A stretch of 64,000 nt of DNA from Paracoccaceae bacterium (GTDB taxonomy: Bacteria > Pseudomonadota > Alphaproteobacteria > Rhodobacterales > Rhodobacteraceae), in assembly GCA_007694945.1 (NCBI GenBank), contig REER01000047.1:1-64000 (forward strand), written 5' to 3'. Positions 12,645-58,232 of the stretch are shown in pieces. The position numbers and the translations under genes were made by a program. The stretch's first letter is position 1, and each line of letters opens with the position of its first letter. Under the pieces are notes generated by a model. That model did not search any database and had not been told where the DNA came from. It saw nothing but the letters and a program-made list of their open reading frames with translations.

Positions 12645-13835
12645 ATGTCTGCACAGAACCCAGTTTTCATTCCAGGCCCCACGAATATCCCCGAGGAAAT
12701 CCGCAAGGCCTGCGACATGCCCACCATGGATCACCGGTCCCAAGCTTTCGCGCGCCTGTTCAAACCAGCGGTTGCGGGAGTGAAACGCGTGCTGAAGATG
12801 AGCGAGGGCGAGGTTATCATCCTCCCCTCGACCGGAACGGGCGGCTGGGAAGCGGCGATCTCGAACACGCTTTCACCAGGTGACACTGTTCTCGCCGCAC
12901 GCTTCGGCATGTTCAGCCACCGCTGGATCGACCTGTGCCAGCGCCACGGGTTGAACGTCCAGATCATCGAGACCCCTTGGGGTCAGGGCGCACCGCTGGA
13001 GGCCATTGAGGCTGCGCTGCGCGCCGACACGGCAAATGAAATCAAGGCGGTGCTCACAACCCATAATGAAACCGCGACTGGCGTGCGCTCTGATATCGGC
13101 GGCATCCGCCGCGCCATGGATGCAGCCAGCCACCCGGCGATGCTGTTTGTCGATGGTGTGTCCTCCATCGGCTCGATGCCCTTCGATATGGCGGGGTGGG
13201 GTGTGGATATCGCTGTTGCAGGCTCGCAAAAGGGATTCATGCTGCCTGCAGGGCTGGCCATTCTCGGCGTTTCGCTCAAGGCGCTTTCTGCGATGGAGCA
13301 CGCCACCCTGCCGCGCACGTTCTTTGATTTCCGTGACATGATCAAGGCTTATGCGGCAGGCGGCTATCCCTATACACCGGCGGTCGGGCTGATCTCTGGC
13401 CTCGCGAAATCCATCGAGATGCTGGAGGATGAGGGGCTTGAGAACGTCTACGCGCGCCACGCCCGCTTCGCCGAAGCCACCCGCCGCGCCGTCGCCGCCT
13501 GGGGCATGCGCCCCTGCGCCGCGAGTCCGGAATTCTTTTCCGACACTGTAACCGCTGTCGTCGTGCCCGAGGGCTGCAATGGCACCGATCTGGTGCAACT
13601 TGCGGCGTCGAAATACGGCATGGCCTTCGGTGTCGGGCTGGGCGAGCTCGCCGGAAAGGTGTTCCGTATCGGGCATCTGGGCATGCTGACGGATGCGATG
13701 CTGCTCTCGGGTCTGGCTGTAGCAGAAATGTGCATGGCCGATCTGGGATGGGATGTGCGGCTGGGCTCTGGCGTGGCGGCGGCGCAGGATTATCTTCGTT
13801 CAAGTGGCGCGGCAACGATTGCAGAGGCCGCTTGA
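12645..13835 (+). CDS. bhcA: Aspartate-glyoxylate aminotransferase (BhcA)
   Basis: 396 residues, class V PLP aminotransferase of the serine/alanine-glyoxylate type. The PLP-binding lysine is Lys196 in AGSQKGFML and the ring-stacking aspartate is Asp170 in LFVDGVSS. In the beta-hydroxyaspartate cycle it transfers the amino group of aspartate to glyoxylate, giving oxaloacetate and glycine. The four following genes in cycle order and the bhcR neighbour make this assignment much safer than sequence similarity alone. GGGAGGAG precedes the start by eight bases. First gene of bhcABCD. Confidence 0.95.
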   Translation: MSAQNPVFIPGPTNIPEEIRKACDMPTMDHRSQAFARLFKPAVAGVKRVLKMSEGEVIILPSTGTGGWEAAISNTLSPGDTVLAARFGMFSHRWIDLCQRHGLNVQIIETPWGQGAPLEAIEAALRADTANEIKAVLTTHNETATGVRSDIGGIRRAMDAASHPAMLFVDGVSSIGSMPFDMAGWGVDIAVAGSQKGFMLPAGLAILGVSLKALSAMEHATLPRTFFDFRDMIKAYAAGGYPYTPAVGLISGLAKSIEMLEDEGLENVYARHARFAEATRRAVAAWGMRPCAASPEFFSDTVTAVVVPEGCNGTDLVQLAASKYGMAFGVGLGELAGKVFRIGHLGMLTDAMLLSGLAVAEMCMADLGWDVRLGSGVAAAQDYLRSSGAATIAEAA

Positions 13836-20608: not shown

Positions 20609-21298
20609 CTAGTCCAGATCCAGTGACATCTGCATGACATCGGCGGCCAGACGCACGGAAATGGGCTTCTTGCGCGCAATCGCCTCGGCATCGAGACGTG
20701 TGACCAACTCTTGCGCAGCCGCCAACGACCTAGTCATGCGCGGCAGCAAATAGGCGATAAGTGCATCGGGCACGCTGACCTGCCGGTCGGCAAAGAGCTT
20801 GGTCAACACCGCGGCGAGCAGCGCGTCATCGGGCTGGCCAAGCGCCACATGCGCGGCCGCCTGCAGGCGCGAGGCGAGGTCGGGCAGGCGCAGGCCCCAG
20901 TCGCGCACCGGCGCGCGGTCGGCCAGCAAGAGCTGGCCGCCCTGCGCAGCAAGCAGGTTGTGCAAGTGGAAAAGCGCAGTTTCGGCATCGCTGTCGCCTG
21001 AAATGCCAGAGGCTGCATCAATCGCCACTGCACCTTTCGCAGCGATAGCTTCGGGGGCCGCAGCGCGCAGCGCCGCGGCATCAAGCAGGAGGGCATCCTT
21101 TGCGGCGGCCCAGATAAGCAACAGATGTGTCTTGCCCGAGCCTTCCGGCCCGGTCATCACCAGCTTGCCAGCGGGCCAATCCCCGCGCTCGATCATAGCC
21201 AGCGCCTGCGCATTGCAGGGCGCAGGCACGAAATCGGCGCGAGACAGCCGGGGCGGCAGCGCCAGTGGCATCGGCATCTGGGCGGGACGGCGGATCAT
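20609..21298 (-). CDS. hda: DnaA-like regulatory protein (Hda/HdaA type)
   Basis: 229 residues. AAA+ module similar to DnaA domain III, with Walker A TGPEGSGKTHL and a sensor region, but no DnaA domain IV DNA-binding helix-turn-helix. A QxPxPL-like clamp-binding peptide (AQMPMPLALP) lies at the N-terminus, as in Hda, which binds the DNA polymerase clamp and stimulates DnaA-ATP hydrolysis. The start overlaps the AI-2E permease stop by four bases (ATGA), an order common in Alphaproteobacteria. Confidence 0.85.
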   Translation of the reverse strand: MIRRPAQMPMPLALPPRLSRADFVPAPCNAQALAMIERGDWPAGKLVMTGPEGSGKTHLLLIWAAAKDALLLDAAALRAAAPEAIAAKGAVAIDAASGISGDSDAETALFHLHNLLAAQGGQLLLADRAPVRDWGLRLPDLASRLQAAAHVALGQPDDALLAAVLTKLFADRQVSVPDALIAYLLPRMTRSLAAAQELVTRLDAEAIARKKPISVRLAADVMQMSLDLD

Positions 21299-22398
21299 GG
21301 CGCGCTGTCCCGGTCGGGCGGCCTATCCGATGGTGAATCTTTGGCGGACGTTGCGGCATCATAGAGCCGCGAGGCGCGATACTGCGCCAGCCCGAAGCGC
21401 ACCAGCACCCCCATCGAGGCTGCGATCGGAACAGCCACCAGCATGCCGGTAAACCCGAAAAGCATCCCGAAAGCAGAGACAGCAAAGAGCAGCCATACCG
21501 GGTGCAGCCGCACCGAGTCGCCCACAATGCGCGGGACAAGGACATTGCCTTCGAGCAACTGGCCGGCTGCAAAAATCGCCAGCACCAGTGCGATCATGCC
21601 TGGCTCGCCCCAGAACTGCCACAAGCCGACCCCGATGGCGAGGACCCCACCGATGATGGCGCCGATATAGGGGATGAAGGAGATGAGCCCCGCCGTGACG
21701 CCGATGGCTAGCCCGAATTGCAGTCCGACCAGTCCCAAAGCTGTTGCATAATAGACCGCCAGAATCAGGCAGACCGTAACCTGCCCGCGCACGAAGCCCG
21801 CGATCGCCCGGTCAACATCTCGGGCGAGTTCACGGATAACAGGCGCGTGCTGGCGCGGCAGCAGATCATCCGCGCCTTCCAGCACGCGCGGCCAGTCGAG
21901 CAACAGATAAAAAGCCACGACCGGCGCAATGACAATGAAGATGATCGCCGAGACGAACCCGGTCAGAGAGCGCAGCACACCCTGGGCCAGATCGGCGCCC
22001 CGGTCGTGGATCGTATCGCCCATGGTGGCCAGCGAGGATCGCAGCGTTTCCTCTAACCCGTCAAGACCCGGGAAGCGCGCGCGCAGCCAGTCCTGCAGTT
22101 GCGCCAGCAATTCAGGCGCGGCCTCGGTGAACTGGATGATCTGAGCGACCACTGCCGGGATGACCAGAAGCCCCGCCACCACAACAGCACCAATCGCGCT
22201 AAGCATCAGCAGTGCCACGGCAAGTGGGCGCGGCAATCCGGCAGCGCTCAGGCGCGTGACCAGCGGGTTCAGGAAATAGGCCAGTGCGGCGCCGGTGACG
22301 AAAGGCAGCAGGACGTCGCCCAGCAACCAGAGCAGCGCGATGAAGGCCAGCGCCGCAATGGCCCATGCGCGCAGTTGCATCTCGGATGAGAGCGCCAT
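21295..22398 (-). CDS. AI-2E/PerM-family permease
   Basis: 367 residues with about seven to eight membrane helices and the family's characteristic central GxxxFIPYIGAIIGG segment. Members are implicated in export of small molecules or in sodium/proton exchange; the substrate here is unknown. The C-terminal tail is hydrophilic. It is the first gene of the permease-hda pair, and its stop overlaps the hda start. Confidence 0.9.
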   Translation of the reverse strand: MALSSEMQLRAWAIAALAFIALLWLLGDVLLPFVTGAALAYFLNPLVTRLSAAGLPRPLAVALLMLSAIGAVVVAGLLVIPAVVAQIIQFTEAAPELLAQLQDWLRARFPGLDGLEETLRSSLATMGDTIHDRGADLAQGVLRSLTGFVSAIIFIVIAPVVAFYLLLDWPRVLEGADDLLPRQHAPVIRELARDVDRAIAGFVRGQVTVCLILAVYYATALGLVGLQFGLAIGVTAGLISFIPYIGAIIGGVLAIGVGLWQFWGEPGMIALVLAIFAAGQLLEGNVLVPRIVGDSVRLHPVWLLFAVSAFGMLFGFTGMLVAVPIAASMGVLVRFGLAQYRASRLYDAATSAKDSPSDRPPDRDSAP

Positions 22399-22464: not shown

Positions 22465-22530
22465 CCGCAAGAAGCGCCCGCCACCCGAGCCCACCCACTC
22501 GCCCCTGCCCGGCTTGCGGGCGCTTCGCGG
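22465..22530 (-). other. Stem with G-quadruplex loop after terB (element 1 of 3)
   Basis: GAAGCGCCCGC (22471-22481) pairs with GCGGGCGCTTC (22516-22526). With a two-base bulge the stem extends outward by CCGC/GCGG. The 34-nt loop is C-rich on the plus strand (four C3-C4 runs at 22484-22505 and another after). Transcripts of terB, which ends 36 bases away, therefore carry GGGG-N5-GGG-N-GGG-N3-GGG. An overlapping short hairpin CGCGGG/CCCGCG (22526-22542) could act as an alternative terminator. No T tract is present. Confidence 0.6.
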
Positions 22531-22565: not shown

Positions 22566-22988
22566 TCACGCCCGCATGTGCCGGGCGCGGGCGCCACGTT
22601 CGATCGCAGCAGCATGCAACCGGTCGACCTGCAATTCGTGGCGGATCTCTTCGAGCAGACGCAGTTCGGTCTGCACGAGCCTGCCATCAGCCGCCGCCAC
22701 ATCACAGGCGAGCGCATAGGCGGTTTCATTCAAGCGCTCGGGCAGGCTATCGCGCATCAGCCCGAAAAGCGCGTCGAGCCCATCCTCCTCCTCAAGCAGG
22801 TCGAAAACTGTCTGGGCAATGATCTTGATACGGTCAGAGTCGTAGTCGGCGAAAATCGGCAGGTGATTGACAAGCGACTGGATCGCGACCAGTTCCGAGG
22901 TCTTGATCTCCATATCGGCGGCTGAGACCGCGATCATTAGCGCGACCAACGAGTCCTGCGGCGAGAGGGGATGGGGCAATTGTGCCAT
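22566..22988 (-). CDS. TerB-like tellurite-resistance family protein
   Basis: 140 residues, all-helical. Two repeated acidic blocks ([15 protein letters not shown] near the N-terminus and [16 protein letters not shown] near the C-terminus) match the internal duplication with metal-binding acidic residues seen in TerB folds. Start ATG 22988 has AAGGAAT upstream. Function in this group is unclear; the TerB name does not prove tellurite resistance. Divergent from lysK. Confidence 0.8.
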
Positions 22989-23090
22989 GGGGTATTCCTT
23001 GATGGGCATTCGGCGCGCAGATTATTGACGGCGCAGGGTATCGGCAATAGGAAGCGGAGCTTGTTCGACCCACAAAGAAGTGACCCCGTG

Positions 23091-35677: not shown

Positions 35678-35680
35678 GTG

Positions 35681-36016
35681 ATGGACCTGCTTGCCCTGCC
35701 CGACTGGATCATCTGGGGCCTGATCGCCATCGGCCTCGTGGTTGCCGAGATGCTGACCACGGTCTATGTCGCACTCGGCTTCGCAGTTGGGGCCGCGGTA
35801 GTGGCGCTGATCAGCTATTTTTTCCCGGGCATGCATGTCTTCTTTCAGGGCCTGATCTGGGCGCTGGTCGGGCTTGGGGTCTGGCTTGGATTGTCCCGCT
35901 GGCACAAGGCAAAGCGCAAGTCACGGCGCGACATCAATGATTTCGATTCGGTCGAATCGCTACCCCGCGCTGATCGTGAGCGGCGCGAGGCCCGGCGCAA
36001 ACGCAACGAAGACTGA
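35681..36016 (+). CDS. NfeD-family membrane partner of the SPFH protein
   Basis: 111 residues with two to three membrane helices (about 8-30, 32-55, 58-72) and a short, charged C-terminal tail (SRRDINDFDSVESLPRADRERREARRKRNED). The soluble OB-fold of long NfeD proteins is missing, as in short NfeD1b-like forms. An in-frame GTG (35678) is directly before the chosen ATG. Followed by a 10-bp GC hairpin and then by the second stem-G4 element. Confidence 0.85.
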   Translation: MDLLALPDWIIWGLIAIGLVVAEMLTTVYVALGFAVGAAVVALISYFFPGMHVFFQGLIWALVGLGVWLGLSRWHKAKRKSRRDINDFDSVESLPRADRERREARRKRNED

Positions 36017-36034: not shown

Positions 36035-36058
36035 GCCCTGCCCCACGAGGGGCAGGGC
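36035..36058 (+). terminator. GC hairpin after nfeD
   Basis: Perfect 10-bp stem GCCCTGCCCC/GGGGCAGGGC with an ACGA tetraloop, 18 bases after the nfeD stop. No T tract. Likely 3'-end stabiliser or terminator of the SPFH-nfeD transcript. Confidence 0.6.
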
Positions 36059-36100
36059 CCCCGAAATCTGCAGGCGCCACACGGACCGAGCGTTTTTTCC

Positions 36101-36158
36101 GCAATGCGCCCTCGGGCCGTGAGGGTGGGTGGGTGGGCACGGTCCGAGGGCGCATTGC
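36101..36158 (+). other. Stem with G-quadruplex loop between nfeD and prs (element 2 of 3)
   Basis: 21-nt arms at 36101-36121 and 36138-36158 pair completely except for one G:T (G:U in RNA). The 16-nt loop is A followed by GGGTGGGTGGGTGGG, an exact four-run G-quadruplex motif with one-base loops, on the nfeD RNA strand. CACGGACCGAG at 36080-36090 nearly repeats CACGGTCCGAG of the right arm, so the left arm can pair with either segment. This resembles a switch. Confidence 0.7.
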
Positions 36159-36183: not shown

Positions 36184-37200
36184 TCAGACCCCGTAGAGCC
36201 CCTCATAAATCGGCATCAGCGTCTCGGTATCGAAAAGCGACGAGACCGAGGTGCCTTTCCATGTGTTCAGGATGCCTTGCGCGAACATCGGTGCAGTGGG
36301 CACGATGCGGATATTCGGCGCATTCTTGACGGCCTCGGTGGGTGCGATGGAGTCGGTGATCACCAGCGATTTCATCACCGACCCAGTCACCCGCTCGACT
36401 GCCGGACCCGAGAGCACGCCATGAGTGATATAGCTGTGCACTTCGGTCGCTCCGGCCTCGATCAGCACCTCGGCGGCCTTGCAGAGCGTGCCCGCCGTGT
36501 CGCAGATGTCATCCACGATGATGCAGGTCTTGCCTGCGACCTCACCGATCACGGTCATCTCGGCAATCTCACCGGGCTTTTCGCGCCGCTTGTCCACGAT
36601 CGCCAGCGTGCAGCCGATCCGCTTGGCCAGTTCCCGCGCCCGTGCGACCCCGCCGACATCGGGTGAGACGACGACGAGGTCCTGAATCCGCCCGTTGAAA
36701 TGGTGCATCACATCCAGCGCAAAGACCGGCGCGGCATAGAGATTGTCCACCGGAATGTCGAAAAACCCCTGAATCTGGGCGGCGTGCAGATCGAGTGTCA
36801 GGATACGCTCGATCCCCGCCTGCGTAATCATGTTCGACACCAGCTTGGCCGAAATCGGCGTGCGCGCCTTGGTGCGACGATCCTGCCGCGCATAGCCGAA
36901 ATAGGGAATCACCGCCGTGATCCGCGCCGCCGAAGAGCGCTTGAGCGCATCAGCGATGATCAACAACTCCATCAGATGGTCATTGGCCGGTTTCGAGGTC
37001 GACTGGATGATGAACATGTCCTCGCCGCGCACATTCTCGAAGACCTCGACGAAGACCTCGCCATCATTGAACCGCTCGACCCTTGCCTCGACAAGGCTGA
37101 CCGACATGCCCCGATGCAGGCTCATGCGCCGCGCGATGGCCTGCGCTAGGGGCCGATTGGCATTTCCGGCAATCAGTTTGGGTTCGGAACGGTCGATCAT
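36184..37200 (-). CDS. prs: Ribose-phosphate pyrophosphokinase
   Basis: 338 residues. PRPP signature [21 protein letters not shown] and [16 protein letters not shown], with the flexible-loop KAR region ([12 protein letters not shown]). It makes PRPP from ribose 5-phosphate and ATP for nucleotide, His and Trp synthesis. Start 37200 (MIDRSEPKL) is preferred over 37233, as the extra residues are not conserved in the family. Divergent from the isomerase gene across 89 bases. Confidence 0.96.
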
Positions 37201-37289
37201 GGAGGGGCCCTTGGCATTACGCGACGTTGACACCGCTTATCACCCCGTTACGGTCTTGCAAACCTCCCCACCGACCCGAAGGACAGTCC

Positions 37290-37886: not shown

Positions 37887-38662
37887 TCGCGGATTGCAGT
37901 TTCAGCGATGAGGGTCCGCCTGCGCTGATGCTGCATTGCATGCTGGGGCGGGCGCGCGACTGGCAGAGGCTGCTGGCGGGCTTGCGCACACCGCTTGCGG
38001 CGCGCAGCTTCGATTTGCCCGGTCATGGGCGCTCCGACTCTTGGGACGGTGAAGAAGATCTGCACGCGCTTTGCACGGGGCTCGCCCGCGAGCGCTGCGG
38101 GCCTGTGGATGTGGTGATCGGGCATTCCTTCGGCGCCACACTCGCCTTGCGGCTCGCGCTTGAGGTGGGCAGCGCGCTGCGCGCGCTGGTGCTGATCGAG
38201 CCAGTGCTGTTCGCGGCTGCCTGTGGCACACCCGAAGCCGCAGCGCAGGCACCCCATGACGCCGCACTGGCAGACGCTTTCGCGCGGGAAGATTACCATG
38301 CCGCCGCGCGCGGCTTTCTTGCGCAGTGGAGCGACGGTCCGCCCTTTGACGCGCTGCCACCGGAGCAACAGGCGCGGATTGCTGCGCGGATGGAGATGGT
38401 GCGGGCGACGGCACCTGTGCTGAACGAAGATAGTGCCGGGTTGCTCCGCCCCGGTGGGCTCGAGAGGCTGGAGTTGCCAGTCCTGCTGCTGCGCGGGAGC
38501 GGGTCTCCCGCTGTCACCGGTGCCATCAACCGCGCCCTTGCGGCGCGACTGCCGTGGTCCGACACGGCGATTGTGCAGGGTGCCGGTCATATGGCACCGA
38601 TCACCCATCCGCGCGAGACTGCGGCGCTGATCGATCCCTTTCTCGCCAAGTTCATGCAGTAA
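37883..38662 (+). CDS. Alpha/beta hydrolase
   Basis: 259 residues. Nucleophile elbow GHSFGA (Ser), oxyanion-type LHCMLG near residue 20, acid in the strand-7 region and the catalytic His in GAGHMAPITHP. This is the complete triad pattern of a soluble alpha/beta hydrolase. It starts at GTG 37883, overlapping the isomerase stop, so the two are co-translated. Substrate unknown. A strong terminator follows. Confidence 0.9.
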   Translation: MIADCSFSDEGPPALMLHCMLGRARDWQRLLAGLRTPLAARSFDLPGHGRSDSWDGEEDLHALCTGLARERCGPVDVVIGHSFGATLALRLALEVGSALRALVLIEPVLFAAACGTPEAAAQAPHDAALADAFAREDYHAAARGFLAQWSDGPPFDALPPEQQARIAARMEMVRATAPVLNEDSAGLLRPGGLERLELPVLLLRGSGSPAVTGAINRALAARLPWSDTAIVQGAGHMAPITHPRETAALIDPFLAKFMQ

Positions 38663-38668
38663 TGGAAA

Positions 38669-38702
38669 AGCCCGCTGCGGCCTTGCTGCAGCGGGCTTCT
38701 TC
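38669..38702. terminator. Bidirectional terminator between convergent genes
   Basis: AAGCCCGCTGC/GCAGCGGGCTT, an 11-bp perfect stem with a 9-nt loop, followed by CTTCTTC. On the minus strand it is preceded and followed by A/T tracts (TTTTCC). Serves the hydrolase gene and probably the convergent small gene. Confidence 0.8.
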
Positions 38703-38718
38703 AACGGTTTCGTCCTGC

Positions 38719-54074: not shown

Positions 54075-55955
54075 ATGACCATGCCCGTTGAACCCTCGAC
54101 CACTGACGCAGTAAACTTGCGCGGACATGCCTGCATTCAGGACTATGTCACCCGGCTGGATGCCTCCCCCGGTGTCTATCGGATGCTGAACGAGAAGTCC
54201 GAAGTGCTTTATGTTGGCAAAGCCCGCAACCTGCGCGCGCGGGTGGCAAACTATGCGCGCCCCTCGGGGCATTCGGCGCGGATCGCGCGGATGATCGCCG
54301 AGACGACCTCGATGATGTTCCTGACCACGCGCACAGAAACCGAAGCCCTGTTGCTGGAGCAGAACCTGATCAAGCAGCTCAAGCCGCGCTACAATGTGCT
54401 GCTGCGCGACGACAAGAGCTTCCCCTACATCCTGCTGCCCAAGGATCATGCTTATCCGCAACTGCGCAAGCATCGCGGGCGGCGCGCGGTCAAGGGCAGG
54501 TATTTCGGACCCTTTGCCTCGGCCGGTGCCGTGAACCGCACGCTGAACCAGTTGCAGCGCGTGTTCCTGTTGCGGAACTGCACGGATTCGGTCTTTAACA
54601 GCCGCACCCGGCCCTGCCTTCTGTATCAGATCAAGCGCTGCTCCGCGCCTTGCGTAGGGTATATTTCCGAGGATGACTATGCCGCGCTCGTGGCCGATGC
54701 CGAGCGGTTTCTGTCAGGAAAGAGCACGAAGATTCAGGCGCAGCTGGCTGAAGAGATGGCGAAAGCCTCCGGAGCCATGGAATTCGAGCGCGCTGCCGCC
54801 CTGCGCGACCGGATTCGCGCGCTGACAAATGTGCAACAAAGCCAGGGCGTGAACCCGCGCGGCGTGCCCGAGGCGGATGTGATCGCCGTGCATCTGGAGA
54901 AAGGGCAGGCCTGCGTGCAGGTCTTCTTCATCCGCGCCAATCAATCCTGGGGCAATCGCGATTTCTATCCTGCGACCGGGGCCGGGGCCGAGGAGCCGGA
55001 AATCCTCGAAGCTTTCATGGCGCAATTCTATGACGGGAAGGAACCACCCCGGTTGGTGCTGACATCGCATGAGATCGAAAACCCGGATCTCATAGGCGCG
55101 CTCCTCGCGGAGCGCGCCCGGCGCAAGGTCGAACTGGCCTGCCCCAAGCGCGGTGAAAAGGCGGAGCTGGTCGAGAATGCGCTGCGCAACGCGCGCGAGG
55201 CGCTGGCGATGCGCATGGCCTCTTCCGCCGCGCAGTCGCGCCTGCTCGAAGGGCTCGCCGAGGCGTTCGGGCTGGAGGCCCCACCTGCGCGGGTCGAGGT
55301 CTATGACAACAGCCATATCCAGGGCAGCGATGCCGTGGGCGCGATGATCGTGGCCGGGCGCGAGGGTTTTGTGAAAAGCCAGTACCGCAAGTTCAATATC
55401 CGGGGCGCCGGACTGACGGCCGGCGATGACTTCGGGATGATGAAGGAAGTGCTGACGCGGCGTTTTGAGCGGCTCTTGAAGGAAGACCCCGACCGCGAGG
55501 GCGAGACCTGGCCGGACCTGCTTTTGATCGACGGCGGCGCAGGGCAGGTTTCCGCCGTGGCCGGAATCATGGCTGATCTGGGGGTGGAGGGTATCCCTGT
55601 TGTGGGAGTCGCCAAGGGGGTGGACCGCGACGCCGGCAAGGAGGAATTTCACCGACCCGGCCAGCGTCCCTTTGCGTTGCGGCACAATGACCCGGTGCTC
55701 TATTTCATCCAACGCCTGCGCGATGAAGCGCACCGTTTCGCTATCGGCACGCACAGGGCCAAGCGCGCGAAGGTGGTAAGCGCCTCGCCGCTGGACGAGA
55801 TCCCGGGTGTGGGCGCAGGACGCAAACGCGCTCTGCTTGCGCATTTCGGATCGGCCAAGGCCGTGGCGCGGGCCGGGGTCACCGATCTGCAGGCCGTGGA
55901 TGGCATCTCGGCGGCGCTGGCGCAGGTGATCCATGATCACCTGAATGCGCGGTGA
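54075..55955 (+). CDS. uvrC: Excinuclease ABC subunit C
   Basis: 626 residues. N-terminal GIY-YIG nuclease ([20 protein letters not shown]), UVR/UvrB-binding motif ([22 protein letters not shown]), RNase-H-like C-terminal nuclease ([16 protein letters not shown]) and tandem HhH ([19 protein letters not shown]). Makes the dual incision in nucleotide excision repair. It overlaps the sirtuin start by four bases. No LexA box was found upstream. Confidence 0.96.
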
Positions 55956-56656
55956 GCAGCGTGGAGCGGGTCGTCATCCTTTCGGGCGCAGGGCTGTCGG
56001 CGGAAAGCGGGTTGGGGACCTTCCGCGACGCAGGCGGGATCTGGCAGAAATTCGATCTCGAAGAGGTCGCCACGCCCGAGGGCTTCGCGCGCAATCCGGC
56101 GCTGGTGCATGAGTTCTACAATGCGCGGCGCGCCAATTGTGCGGGGGCTGCACCCAACGCGGCGCATCGCGCACTGGCAGAAATGCAACAAGCGGCACCC
56201 GACAGGGTAACGCTGGTGACGCAGAATATTGACGATTTATTGGAGCGCGCGGGCGCGCGCGAAGTCATCCACATGCATGGTGAGGTGATGCGAGCGCTTT
56301 GCGCATCCTGCGGCCATCGCTGGGATGCGCCCATGGTGATGCAGCCGCATGACCCCTGCCCGGCCTGCGGGGCCGGCGCCACGCGGCCCGATATCGTCTG
56401 GTTCGGCGAAATTCCCCATCACATGGAAGATATCGGCGCGGCCCTGTCACAGGCGGATCTCTTTGTCGCAGTCGGCACATCGGGGGCAGTCTATCCGGCA
56501 GCAGGCTTCGTGAGCGAGGCGCGCGCCTTCGGCGCGCGTACGCTGGAACTCAATCTGGAGCCTTCGGAAACCTCGCGCCTGTTCGACACCTCCCGCCTTG
56601 GCCCTGCCAGCGAGATAGTGCCCGCCTGGGTCGCGGATCTGCTGCAGCGGCGCTGA
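55952..56656 (+). CDS. cobB: NAD-dependent protein deacylase, sirtuin (CobB-like)
   Basis: 234 residues. [26 protein letters not shown] and a four-Cys zinc module (CASC...CPAC). A Tyr-x-x-Arg (EFYNARR) matches the pair that gives desuccinylase activity in SIRT5-like enzymes. It starts at GTG 55952, overlapping uvrC. Known CobB targets include Acs, which is encoded in this window, but not in the same operon. Confidence 0.93.
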
Positions 56657-56733
56657 CCGGGCCACCCTCCCTGCGCTGCGGCGCGCGGGTGGGAGGGTGG
56701 GGCGTGTCGCAGCGCAGGGAGGGTGGCCCGGTC
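56655..56733 (+). other. 26-bp perfect inverted repeat with G-quadruplex loop (element 3 of 3)
   Basis: Arms 56655-56680 and 56708-56733 are perfect 26-bp complements. The 27-nt loop holds GGGTGGGAGGGTGGGG (56687-56702), four G-runs with one-base loops. The left arm begins inside the sirtuin stop codon, and the right arm ends 29 bases before the convergent imuB stop. The G-rich strand is the sirtuin RNA strand. No T tract. Confidence 0.75.
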
Positions 56734-56762
56734 AAGCCCTTCAGAGCGTGGCCTGCCCCGTA

Positions 56763-58232
56763 TCAGGCAAATGTCCCGTGCACGCTCCAGCCGCTGCATT
56801 GCGGCGTGTGAAACAGCCACAGCCGCGCGCCCTGTTCGGTCTGCACCCGCCAGTAATCCCGGATGCCCGACCGCCAGGCCGGATCATCGAGCCACCATTC
56901 CGGGCTGATCCGCTCCGGCCCGGACACAGATGTCACCCGCCAGTCCTGCCCCCGCCAGCGGAACCGCTGTGGCGGCCTGCGTCCCTGCCCTGCAATTGGT
57001 TCGGGCGGGAACAGCACCAGCGGGCGGGGTGGCGTGGCAGGCCAATCGCGCGCAGGATCACTATAGGCGGCCGCCGCGATTATGAAGCCCTTCTCGGCGA
57101 TATGGCTGTCGGCGGGCAGGTAGCGCTGGACATGTTCGAAGCCCACGCGGTTGCACAACCGGGTCAAGAGGTCGGCCAGCGCGCCCTGCGCCTCTGCGCC
57201 CGCAGAGGTGATTTGCTGCACAGGCTGCGCCTCGAGTTCGACTGCGCTGAGCCGCATCCGCTCGATACCGTACCCTGTATCGAACCCGTCCAGTGCCGCA
57301 GCGAAAAGCGGCTGCATGGCATCAGCATCGCGCATGGCCCGGGCCAGACCGATCTCGAGATGCGCCACCGAGCCATCGACGCGGGACAACTCCAGCACCA
57401 GCCGCCGTGCGCCTTGCCCAGCGCGCTCCAGATGCGCACAGAGCCGTTCCAGCAGGCGCGCAAGCCCGGCATCGATATCGCCGCGCAGGCCGACGGGCTC
57501 GGGCAGGGACAGGCGCACGGCGAAGCCGGGCGTCTCCGGCAGCGGCGAGACAGGCTCGGACAGCGCCCCCAGTGCCTGATCGAGTCGCACCATCGGCCCC
57601 GGCCCGAAACGGCGCGCGAGGCTTGCGCGCGGGATCTGGACAAGATCGCGCACGATCCGCAGGCCGAGCCGCTCGAGCCCCTCGACAGCCTCTGGCTCCA
57701 GCCGCAGGGCGGCAAGCGGCAGCGGCATCAGCGCGCGCCGGGTCTCTCCGGACGCAACCACGCCCCCTGCCCCGAAATGCGCCACGGCCCATGCCGCGCC
57801 GCGTGTCTCGGCAATCGCAGCGCGGGTCTCGAAGCCCATCCGCTCCAACCGGCCGGTCAGATCATCCAGCAATGCCGCCTCACCGCCTATCAGATGCGCG
57901 GCCCCCGTGATGTCCAACACCAGCCCATCCGCACCATCCGGGGCAACCCAGGGGCAATAGCGCAGCGCCCAGCGACCAAGCGCGGCCAGTGCCTGTGCCT
58001 GCGCGTGCGGATCGTCGGGCCGCGTCAGCAGATCGGGCAGCAGCGCGCGCGCATCGGCCAGCCCCATGCCGCGCGCAAGCCCGCGCGCTTCGGCCTCGGC
58101 CGAGAGCCCGGCCAGCCGGTCCGCGCCGCGCGACCGCGCCACCAGTGCGAAAGGCCCCGCCACCGGGTTGCGGCGCAGCGAGAGGTCGGAACCGAAGCGG
58201 GGCAGCCAGAGCGAGAGGAGTCGGCGGGGCAT
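56763..58232 (-). CDS. imuB: ImuB, catalytically inactive Y-family polymerase homologue
   Basis: 489 residues. Starts [21 protein letters not shown]; the Y-family palm acidic triad is not conserved, as expected for ImuB, which acts as a hub for ImuA and DnaE2 in damage-induced mutagenesis. The C-terminal half keeps the thumb/little-finger-like region. imuA and dnaE2, normally adjacent, are absent on both sides. A LexA box lies 17 bases upstream. Confidence 0.9.

Follow-up and report, generated by a model that had tools for sequence, protein, structure and literature searches.

Hairpins with a kept four-run G-tract loop and varying stems near gene ends in Rhodobacteraceae

The "G-quadruplex-Hairpin-Duplex switch" of E. 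coli (Kaplan et al. 2016) is said to be a conserved bacterial sequence, associated with REP-type repeats, that can adopt quadruplex, hairpin and duplex forms. REP and BIME elements are intergenic multi-copy palindromes found near gene ends. CcsR and "cuckoo" are names for relatives of the small RNAs SmelA075 and SmelA099, and the CcsR RNAs bear a CCUCCUCCC loop. Excerpts of two papers name REP and BIME as a repeat class (PMC4666352, PMC4692102). SmelA075 and SmelA099 themselves are presented, in an excerpt of PMC3927594, as alphaproteobacterial small RNAs made of several hairpins, in which the C-rich CCUCCUCCC loop is fixed and the stems are variable and diverged. In Rhodobacter, an intercistronic hairpin of the puf operon has a stabilising effect on the 3' end of the mRNA segment that precedes it, and maturation of the CcsR RNAs of R. 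sphaeroides involves RNase E and the RNA-binding protein CcaF1 (PMC10253847, in excerpt). Interspersed recurrent G4 motifs with an alternative hairpin are reported from Methanomicrobiaceae archaea (PMC8044849, in part). Finally, a survey of 118,019 genomes reports that inverted repeats accumulate past stop codons, and that their spacers are more variable than their arms, above all near terminators (PMC13155455, in part).

The hairpin described here lies in a window of 64,000 nucleotides, by which we mean the whole stretch of DNA that was analysed, within a 167-nt gap between a gene for a small NfeD-like protein (35678-36016, plus strand, 112 aa) and prs, which encodes ribose-phosphate diphosphokinase (36184-37200, minus strand, with an uncertain start that is alternatively at 37233). 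The earlier note had called these genes nfeD and prs; the identity of prs is confirmed, whereas the 112-aa protein has no Pfam match and takes its name only from its location behind an SPFH gene. As the same note described, 21-nt arms with one G:T pair enclose an A and a quadruplex tract (36101-36158). The left arm GCAATGCGCCCTCGGGCCGTG (36101-36121, plus strand) pairs over 21 positions with the right arm CACGGTCCGAGGGCGCATTGC (36138-36158, plus strand), which is the prs-proximal one and adjoins the G-tract without a linker. Between them the 16-nt loop (36122-36137) consists of A followed by GGGTGGGTGGGTGGG, that is A+(GGGT)3GGG, with its G-runs on the plus strand. This is the template strand for prs, and the prs mRNA carries CCCACCCACCCACCC. 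The hairpin is 84 nt from the end of the nfeD-like gene (36016) and 25 nt from the prs stop (36184), and it goes with prs, not with nfeD. An ordinary 10-bp hairpin with an ACGA loop (36036-36059, plus strand), about 20 nt past the nfeD-like stop, is a candidate 3' end of that gene. No T-run directly adjoins the stem of 36101-36158 in either direction. An RNA folding model of the G-strand gives -82.5 kcal/mol with a quadruplex term and -45.1 kcal/mol without it.

The locus thus described has four foldable G-runs within an inverted repeat, which is the arrangement by which a G-quadruplex-hairpin-duplex switch is recognised. From what is said of the Kaplan switch, the present element differs in having its quadruplex tract as the loop of a long stem, in the variety of stems between sites, and in its host family, the Rhodobacteraceae. 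With REP and BIME it shares the character of intergenic multi-copy palindromes near gene ends, but it has many stems and a loop of G-runs, and the genome from which the window comes (the source genome) has no Y1_Tnp match. The puf hairpin is similar in lying inside an operon, although a quadruplex tract is not known for its loop. The CCUCCUCCC-loop RNAs are composed of three or four hairpins, whereas the element is single, is located past stop codons and has another loop (CCCACCCACCCACCC in the prs mRNA, in place of the CCUCCUCCC by which CcsR-type RNAs are recognised). In the Methanomicrobiaceae repeats, as PMC8044849 presents them, an adjacent C-rich tract competes with the G4, whereas here the arms enclose it. 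Compared with inverted repeats in general (PMC13155455, in part), the element does the reverse: it keeps the loop and varies the arms. We did not find this structural class described in the open-licence PMC literature, and Rfam gave no match above the gathering threshold in 14 loci (39,818 bases, including L003, which holds 36101-36158), by which an Rfam element is ruled out for these loci.

The earlier note had stated that the same design recurs at two other gene ends in the window. This is correct for 56654-56734 (plus strand), a longer copy with 33-bp arms (31 Watson-Crick and two G:T pairs) around the loop GGGTGGGAGGGTGGG. A SIR2-family gene (55952-56656) has its TGA stop within the left arm, and a gene for an IMS/ImuB-like polymerase (56763-58232, minus strand) converges on this hairpin. 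The other case, 22471-22526, has its G-runs on the minus strand and is much weaker, with perfect 11-bp arms around a loose 34-nt loop; it sits between genes for a TerB domain protein (22566-23009, minus strand) and an AI-2E transporter family protein (21295-22380, minus strand), and it faces the opposite way relative to the preceding gene.

In order to determine how far such sequences exceed chance, we counted the exact 15-mer (GGGT)3GGG and compared the counts with an order-3 Markov model of the source genome. Four copies are present in this 3.18-Mb genome, where 0.008 are expected, and the 37 genus genomes have 127 copies in all, carried by 27 of them, against an expected 0.29. A scramble of the same composition, GGGTGGGGTGGTGGG, has no copy in the same 37 genomes, with a Markov expectation of 0.33. 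A chance origin is ruled out by the scramble count and the Markov expectation; the earlier note had named genome-wide counts no higher than base composition predicts as grounds for giving up the idea, and the observed counts are above that level. Inverted repeats as such are also in excess: a 464-kb sample of the source genome, window included, holds 33 with a score of at least 13, against one after a single local shuffle. Three of the four copies in the source genome have the stem of 36101-36158 and the fourth has another stem, while in G007 all 37 of the listed copies lie within hairpins (stem score of at least 14). The exact 15-mer occurs in 28 of 295 sampled genomes of the family, most being without it, and in 13 of 397 genomes of a phylum sample from outside the family. 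Long poly-G runs that end contigs C5, C79 and C126 of genome G000 are probably sequencing or assembly artefacts, and they inflate the counts of GGGNGGGNGGGNGGG.

Within Rhodobacteraceae, 128 of 139 distinct copies are flanked by a stem with a score of at least 10 (65 of 73 in the genus, 34 of 37 in other genera, and 29 of 29 in G073), a level reached by no more than 0.06% of shuffled flanks. None of the eight distinct copies from the 397-genome phylum sample outside the family reaches this score. The element class is therefore restricted, by computation, to Rhodobacteraceae in the sample searched. The copies analysed are those with fetched loci (73 distinct ones among the 127 of the genus and 29 among the 72 of G073), and they are not phylogenetically independent; after removal of shared arms, 91 distinct inner arms remain among the 128 hairpins. 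The palindrome is conserved between copies within families that share a core stem, not across the class. Eleven of the 139 family copies fall below the stem cut-off; four of these (L037, L052, L060, L061) bear an extra inner hairpin, and a stem is lacking altogether in L140 and in the two L150 copies. By eye, L031 and the same four loci are branched forms, in which an outer stem surrounds an extra hairpin and the G4 tract, and the G4 adjoins or nearly adjoins the right arm. L150 (contig C38 of G119) is an exception in the family, with two GGGTGGGTGGGTGGG copies 130 bp apart that belong to a direct repeat and not to a hairpin loop.

We also approached the class from the stems. A scan of 164 loci for intergenic hairpins with a loop of at least 12 nt returned 59, which were scored for mismatches in the 12 run positions of a four-run tract: 31 have none, seven have one to three, and 21 have four or more. 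Random intergenic windows of equal lengths contain a perfect four-run tract in 1.1% of cases. The stretches scanned are non-random, in that contigs came from the motif-search listing, G073 was picked for its many copies, and the phnJ, smr, betB and SPFH genes were picked since some locus has the element beside them. Perfect loops account for seven of 14 long-loop hairpins in G073 stretches, three of seven at betB loci, one of five at SPFH loci and 17 of 19 at phnJ and smr loci, against none of four at SPFH loci outside the family. In 20 stretches of the source genome outside the window only one of nine is perfect, and four more have one or two mismatches, so this genome also holds decayed forms. 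Taken over the four sets outside the window (source genome, G073, betB, SPFH), 12 of 35 are perfect against the random 1.1%. Under a strict quadruplex rule the figures are four of 10 in the source-genome sample, window included (random 0.4%), and seven of 15 in G073 (random 1.0%). Elements fetched by their core stem give a similar picture: of the 19 that have a partner arm, 14 have a loop in which one strand carries at least four G3 runs, three have three runs and two have fewer, and six further half-sites have no partner arm in reach.

The constraint within the loop falls on the runs. Among the 38 hairpins with at most three run mismatches, aligned at the best-fitting offset, 25 of 114 separators are not T and 13 of 456 run positions are mismatched, the latter figure being limited by construction. 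G-runs are thus rigid and the single-base separators vary. Broken loops occur at L261, L283, L159, L071, L078, L080, L225, L227, L252 and L254.

Placement was examined relative to neighboring genes, which were called with a codon-model gene caller of our own, trained on the source genome and used on other genera too; context counts omit copies at a locus end (within 40 nt) and those with identical 25-nt flanks, and overlapping tandem matches were merged. Taking the G-strand as plus, both neighbors of the 128 hairpins are on the minus strand in 62 cases and on the plus strand in 10, the neighbors converge in 44 and diverge in five, and seven cases are of other kinds. For the 121 that can be classified, this amounts to 72 co-directional, 44 convergent and five divergent sites, whereas background gaps of at least 60 nt in the source-genome sample number 139, 42 and 66, respectively. 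Compared with the background counts, divergent gaps are avoided and convergent gaps are favoured. Measured from the stop codon of the gene whose mRNA contains the C-loop, the hairpin begins after a median of 21.5 nt, and in 24 of the 62 co-directional sites the start of the following gene lies within 60 nt.

The element is also found between presumed operon partners, namely betI-betB, betB-betA, betT-betA, phnI-phnJ, phnK-phnL and gcvH-gcvP, as well as in a liv transporter pair and, in two genera, between an M20 hydrolase gene and an agmatinase gene. NCBIfam matches, some of them below the curated cut-off and obtained with protein pieces, identify BetI (L139), betaine-aldehyde dehydrogenase (L133), choline dehydrogenase (L155), GcvH (L059) and agmatinase (L144), and both PhnK and PhnL are confirmed at L146. 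A 200-aa piece of PhnJ has no NCBIfam match and the PhnI-like protein has only a sub-threshold match to PhnG; the names phnI and phnJ, like those of the partner genes, livG, BCCT/betT, tgt, gcvP and other neighbors, were given by reading. In glycine-betaine (bet) genes of different genera the hairpin is seen at several joints (L139, L133, L136, L155). A full terminator would be odd in such operons, and a partial attenuator or a stabilising intercistronic hairpin fits them better.

Comparison of the same gaps across genomes shows the loop being kept while stems and presence change. Behind smr, a hairpin is present in 10 of 30 loci of the genus, with several different stems by eye (L272, L273 and L274 are alike, as are L279 and L282) and a broken run in L283; tgt downstream of smr was read in L035 only. 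Between phnI and phnJ the element is present in 13 of 16 readable loci, often directly before the phnJ ribosome-binding site. It is absent from L260 (source genome), L265 and L270, and L271 is unreadable (partial match); since the sequence upstream of phnJ looks coding in L260 and L270, phn gene order may differ there. The phnI-phnJ stem is mostly invariant, with 97.6% of cells paired and two pairs changed on both sides. Covariation as proof of structure was set aside at this gap, as 12 of 500 shuffles also reach two compensated pairs, and because the stem hardly varies the structural argument rests on the differing stems at smr, at betB and between genera. Behind betB the element occurs in two of 30 genera (L393, L400) among the best 30 of 71 matching genomes; L133 and L136, chosen by motif, also carry it there, with different stems and the same direction. 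Tandem G.A pairs beside the G-tract, considered as a G-strand junction at phnI-phnJ and smr, stay a guess.

In the nfeD-prs gap of the closest titled relative (L156) there is a remnant but no intact hairpin. The core stem is the same in L159 but its loop is shortened, a four-run loop sits on a different stem in L176, L158 and L167 have degenerate hairpins, and the other readable loci have short, absent or unrelated sequence. From this comparison, the element at nfeD-prs has been quickly gained and lost within the genus. The conservation of the loop in relatives that the earlier note looked for is therefore found at phnI-phnJ and behind smr, but not at nfeD-prs in the closest titled relative. 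The L160 gap contains a hairpin with the stem GGGTGGGTG/CACCCACCC, in which G-runs are in an arm and not in the loop.

The element looks like a little-known signal that may mark or protect gene ends, a function that we infer for the class only from its placement and constraint. In the reading that we tentatively prefer, at somewhat less than even confidence, it is a cis-acting 3'-end or intercistronic element that would combine a quadruplex-prone template strand with an RNA stem-loop protecting or delimiting the upstream mRNA. Transcription of prs would produce an RNA with a 21-bp stem and a C-rich loop, while the template DNA strand with its G-runs could form the same stem capped by a quadruplex. 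Like the puf intercistronic hairpin, the RNA stem-loop might then shield the upstream mRNA from 3'-to-5' decay or delimit it, and the quadruplex-capped template arm might help the DNA palindrome to open behind RNA polymerase and slow the polymerases that follow. At convergent ends the element would separate two genes; inside operons, if the paired genes are co-transcribed, it would allow the upstream gene and the next one to be expressed at independent levels. The earlier note's proposal of a terminator, an RNA decay block or a DNA roadblock is in line with this non-chance, recurrent placement at gene ends. A wider version seems possible but somewhat unlikely: in part of the Rhodobacteraceae the element could be a genome-wide punctuation of 3' ends, with a fixed tip (four G3 runs in the template, C3 runs in the mRNA) and freely changing stems, which RNA polymerase itself or a dedicated factor reads and which sets the stoichiometry of genes in operons such as bet, phn and gcv and insulates convergent genes. 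Roles of bacterial quadruplexes have often been argued from counts; here family restriction, a kept loop with changing stems, 3'-end placement, strand bias and linker asymmetry coincide. Such loci offer natural, replicated sites in environmental bacteria at which the role of a quadruplex at gene ends could be tested, the G-strand in DNA against the C-loop in RNA.

The closest rival to this preferred reading, an RNA-level one, we consider fairly unlikely. According to the rival, a protein or a G-rich RNA binds the mRNA hairpin with its C-loop (CCCRCCCRCCCACCC), and the capacity of the opposite strand for quadruplex formation is a by-product. At co-directional pairs the G-runs are on the template strand and the C-rich loop is in the mRNA of the nearer gene in 62 cases against 10 (p 2.7e-10, uncorrected for kinship), a bias that also appears with non-redundant inner arms (52 to 6) and in a set of mostly one copy per genus (22 to 3), and which counts for the preferred reading as well as for the RNA-level one. 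For the nearer gene, prs in our case, a quadruplex in the RNA loop is excluded because the mRNA loop is C-rich, a point that the earlier note did not anticipate. A GUCG junction before the C-loop, which recurs by eye, speaks for an RNA role; its counterpart, a CGAC that follows the G-tract, is present in 11 of the 91 distinct inner arms. Precedents are the hairpins with a fixed C-rich loop (PMC3927594, in excerpt) and the puf intercistronic hairpin and CcsR maturation (PMC10253847, in excerpt). Transcription with T7 and SP6 polymerases in vitro yielded (G3T)n quadruplexes when the RNA was G-rich and not when it was C-rich (PMC7023247, in part), and the prevailing orientation is by this result the one least expected for a transcription-driven DNA quadruplex. 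G4-seq of Rhodobacter is reported to show no quadruplex enrichment in any genomic region (PMC6486626, in excerpt). Against a pure RNA role, two features favour the G-strand, namely runs of three with free single separators and an asymmetry of the linkers, the 5' linker being the longer one in 67 of 128 hairpins and the 3' linker in four. At its 3' end the G-tract thus meets the stem directly, as would be expected if folding of the G-strand mattered and as though a folded tract were stacked with its 3' face on the stem; both features are what a G-strand quadruplex needs. Furthermore, at convergent sites the mRNA of the other gene receives the G-loop.

It is improbable that the hairpins are selfish REP-like repeats that spread by copying and have no job in the host, although part of the material resembles such repeats. 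The core stem GCGCCCTCGGGSCGTG is a short extragenic palindrome that occurs in many copies, as REP sequences do, with 99 half-sites in G007, 30 in G009, 10 in G011 and four in the source genome; it is found in seven of the 37 genus genomes and absent from the other 30. A similar 17-bp core recurs, by eye, in G073. In the genus, however, palindromes extend beyond the core in a locus-specific manner, unlike a fixed unit: 25 strict-core copies average 4.08 extra pairs, compared with 1.63 after the flanks of different copies are interchanged, at least five extra pairs are present in nine of the 25 against 3.6% with mixed flanks, and 31 copies with a looser core have 3.42 against 1.16. The 19 copies of G073 show no arm extension (1.05 against 1.04), which fits a fixed unit there. 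Different stems also share loop, place and direction across genera, and a search for the Y1 kind of transposase (PF01797) returned no match at E 0.001 in the source genome (assembly 95% complete) or in G007, whereas four of the 37 genus genomes have a match at E of at most 0.001. RAYT/REP mobility was set aside on the missing Y1_Tnp match in the source genome. Spread by plasmids was also considered and dropped, as a blastn search with 71 bases containing the element gave no match in a plasmid collection, a result that low-complexity filtering may mask.

Several G007 copies (L089, L090, L092, L095, L110) have a core palindrome extended outward by six to 11 locus-specific pairs. The G007 cores look as if they sat inside, or had grown from, a local palindrome; palindrome growth by template switching and insertion into existing hairpins were not retained as explanations, arm extension being present in the genus and absent in G073. 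A second repeated stem family, AGCGCCCGCGA..GGGTCA-[G4]-GACCCTGAGCGGGCGCT with variants, was seen by eye at L006, L032 and L047 (source genome and G016). L068 of the source genome has at 12879-12953 a long imperfect palindrome without a G4, with 30-nt arms and the AT-rich loop TGAAAAAAATTTCTC.

Ordinary intrinsic or bidirectional terminators with an incidental loop appear just as doubtful as selfish repeats. The element is a GC-rich hairpin just past a gene, as intrinsic terminators are, and its 3'-end placement and frequency at convergent sites are like those of ordinary hairpins in the same genomes. No clear U-tract follows the G4 hairpins (a mean of 1.59 T in 8 nt, and 9% with at least four), which argues against termination, although ordinary 3'-end hairpins are little better (1.98 T and 15% in the source genome, 1.66 and 11% in G073); since both are weak, the U-tract does not separate the two kinds. 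The close starts of next genes noted above also weigh against terminators, and perfect four-run loops (12 of 35 against 1.1%) are too frequent for an incidental loop.

The three-segment, potassium-gated switch proposed in the earlier note is very improbable: although 10 of the 11 bases of CACGGACCGAG (36080-36090, plus strand) do match the start of the right arm, as the note said of its competing arm, the alternative hairpin is weak (-16.8 against -45.1 kcal/mol for the 79-nt stretch that includes the main stem, as RNA and with no quadruplex term), the two sister copies lack such an arm (8 of 11 matches in L001 and 6 of 11 in L004), and the match is marginal by chance and probably incidental, a match of this quality arising in 0.18% of 20,000 shuffles of the upstream gap for that 11-mer and in 1.4% of 3,000 for any 11-mer of the right arm. 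Elsewhere in the window, an ordinary strong hairpin at 38663-38703, with 19-bp arms that have A/T ends and a CTT loop, is located between genes that end at 38662 (plus strand) and 38719 (minus strand), and it resembles a normal bidirectional terminator.
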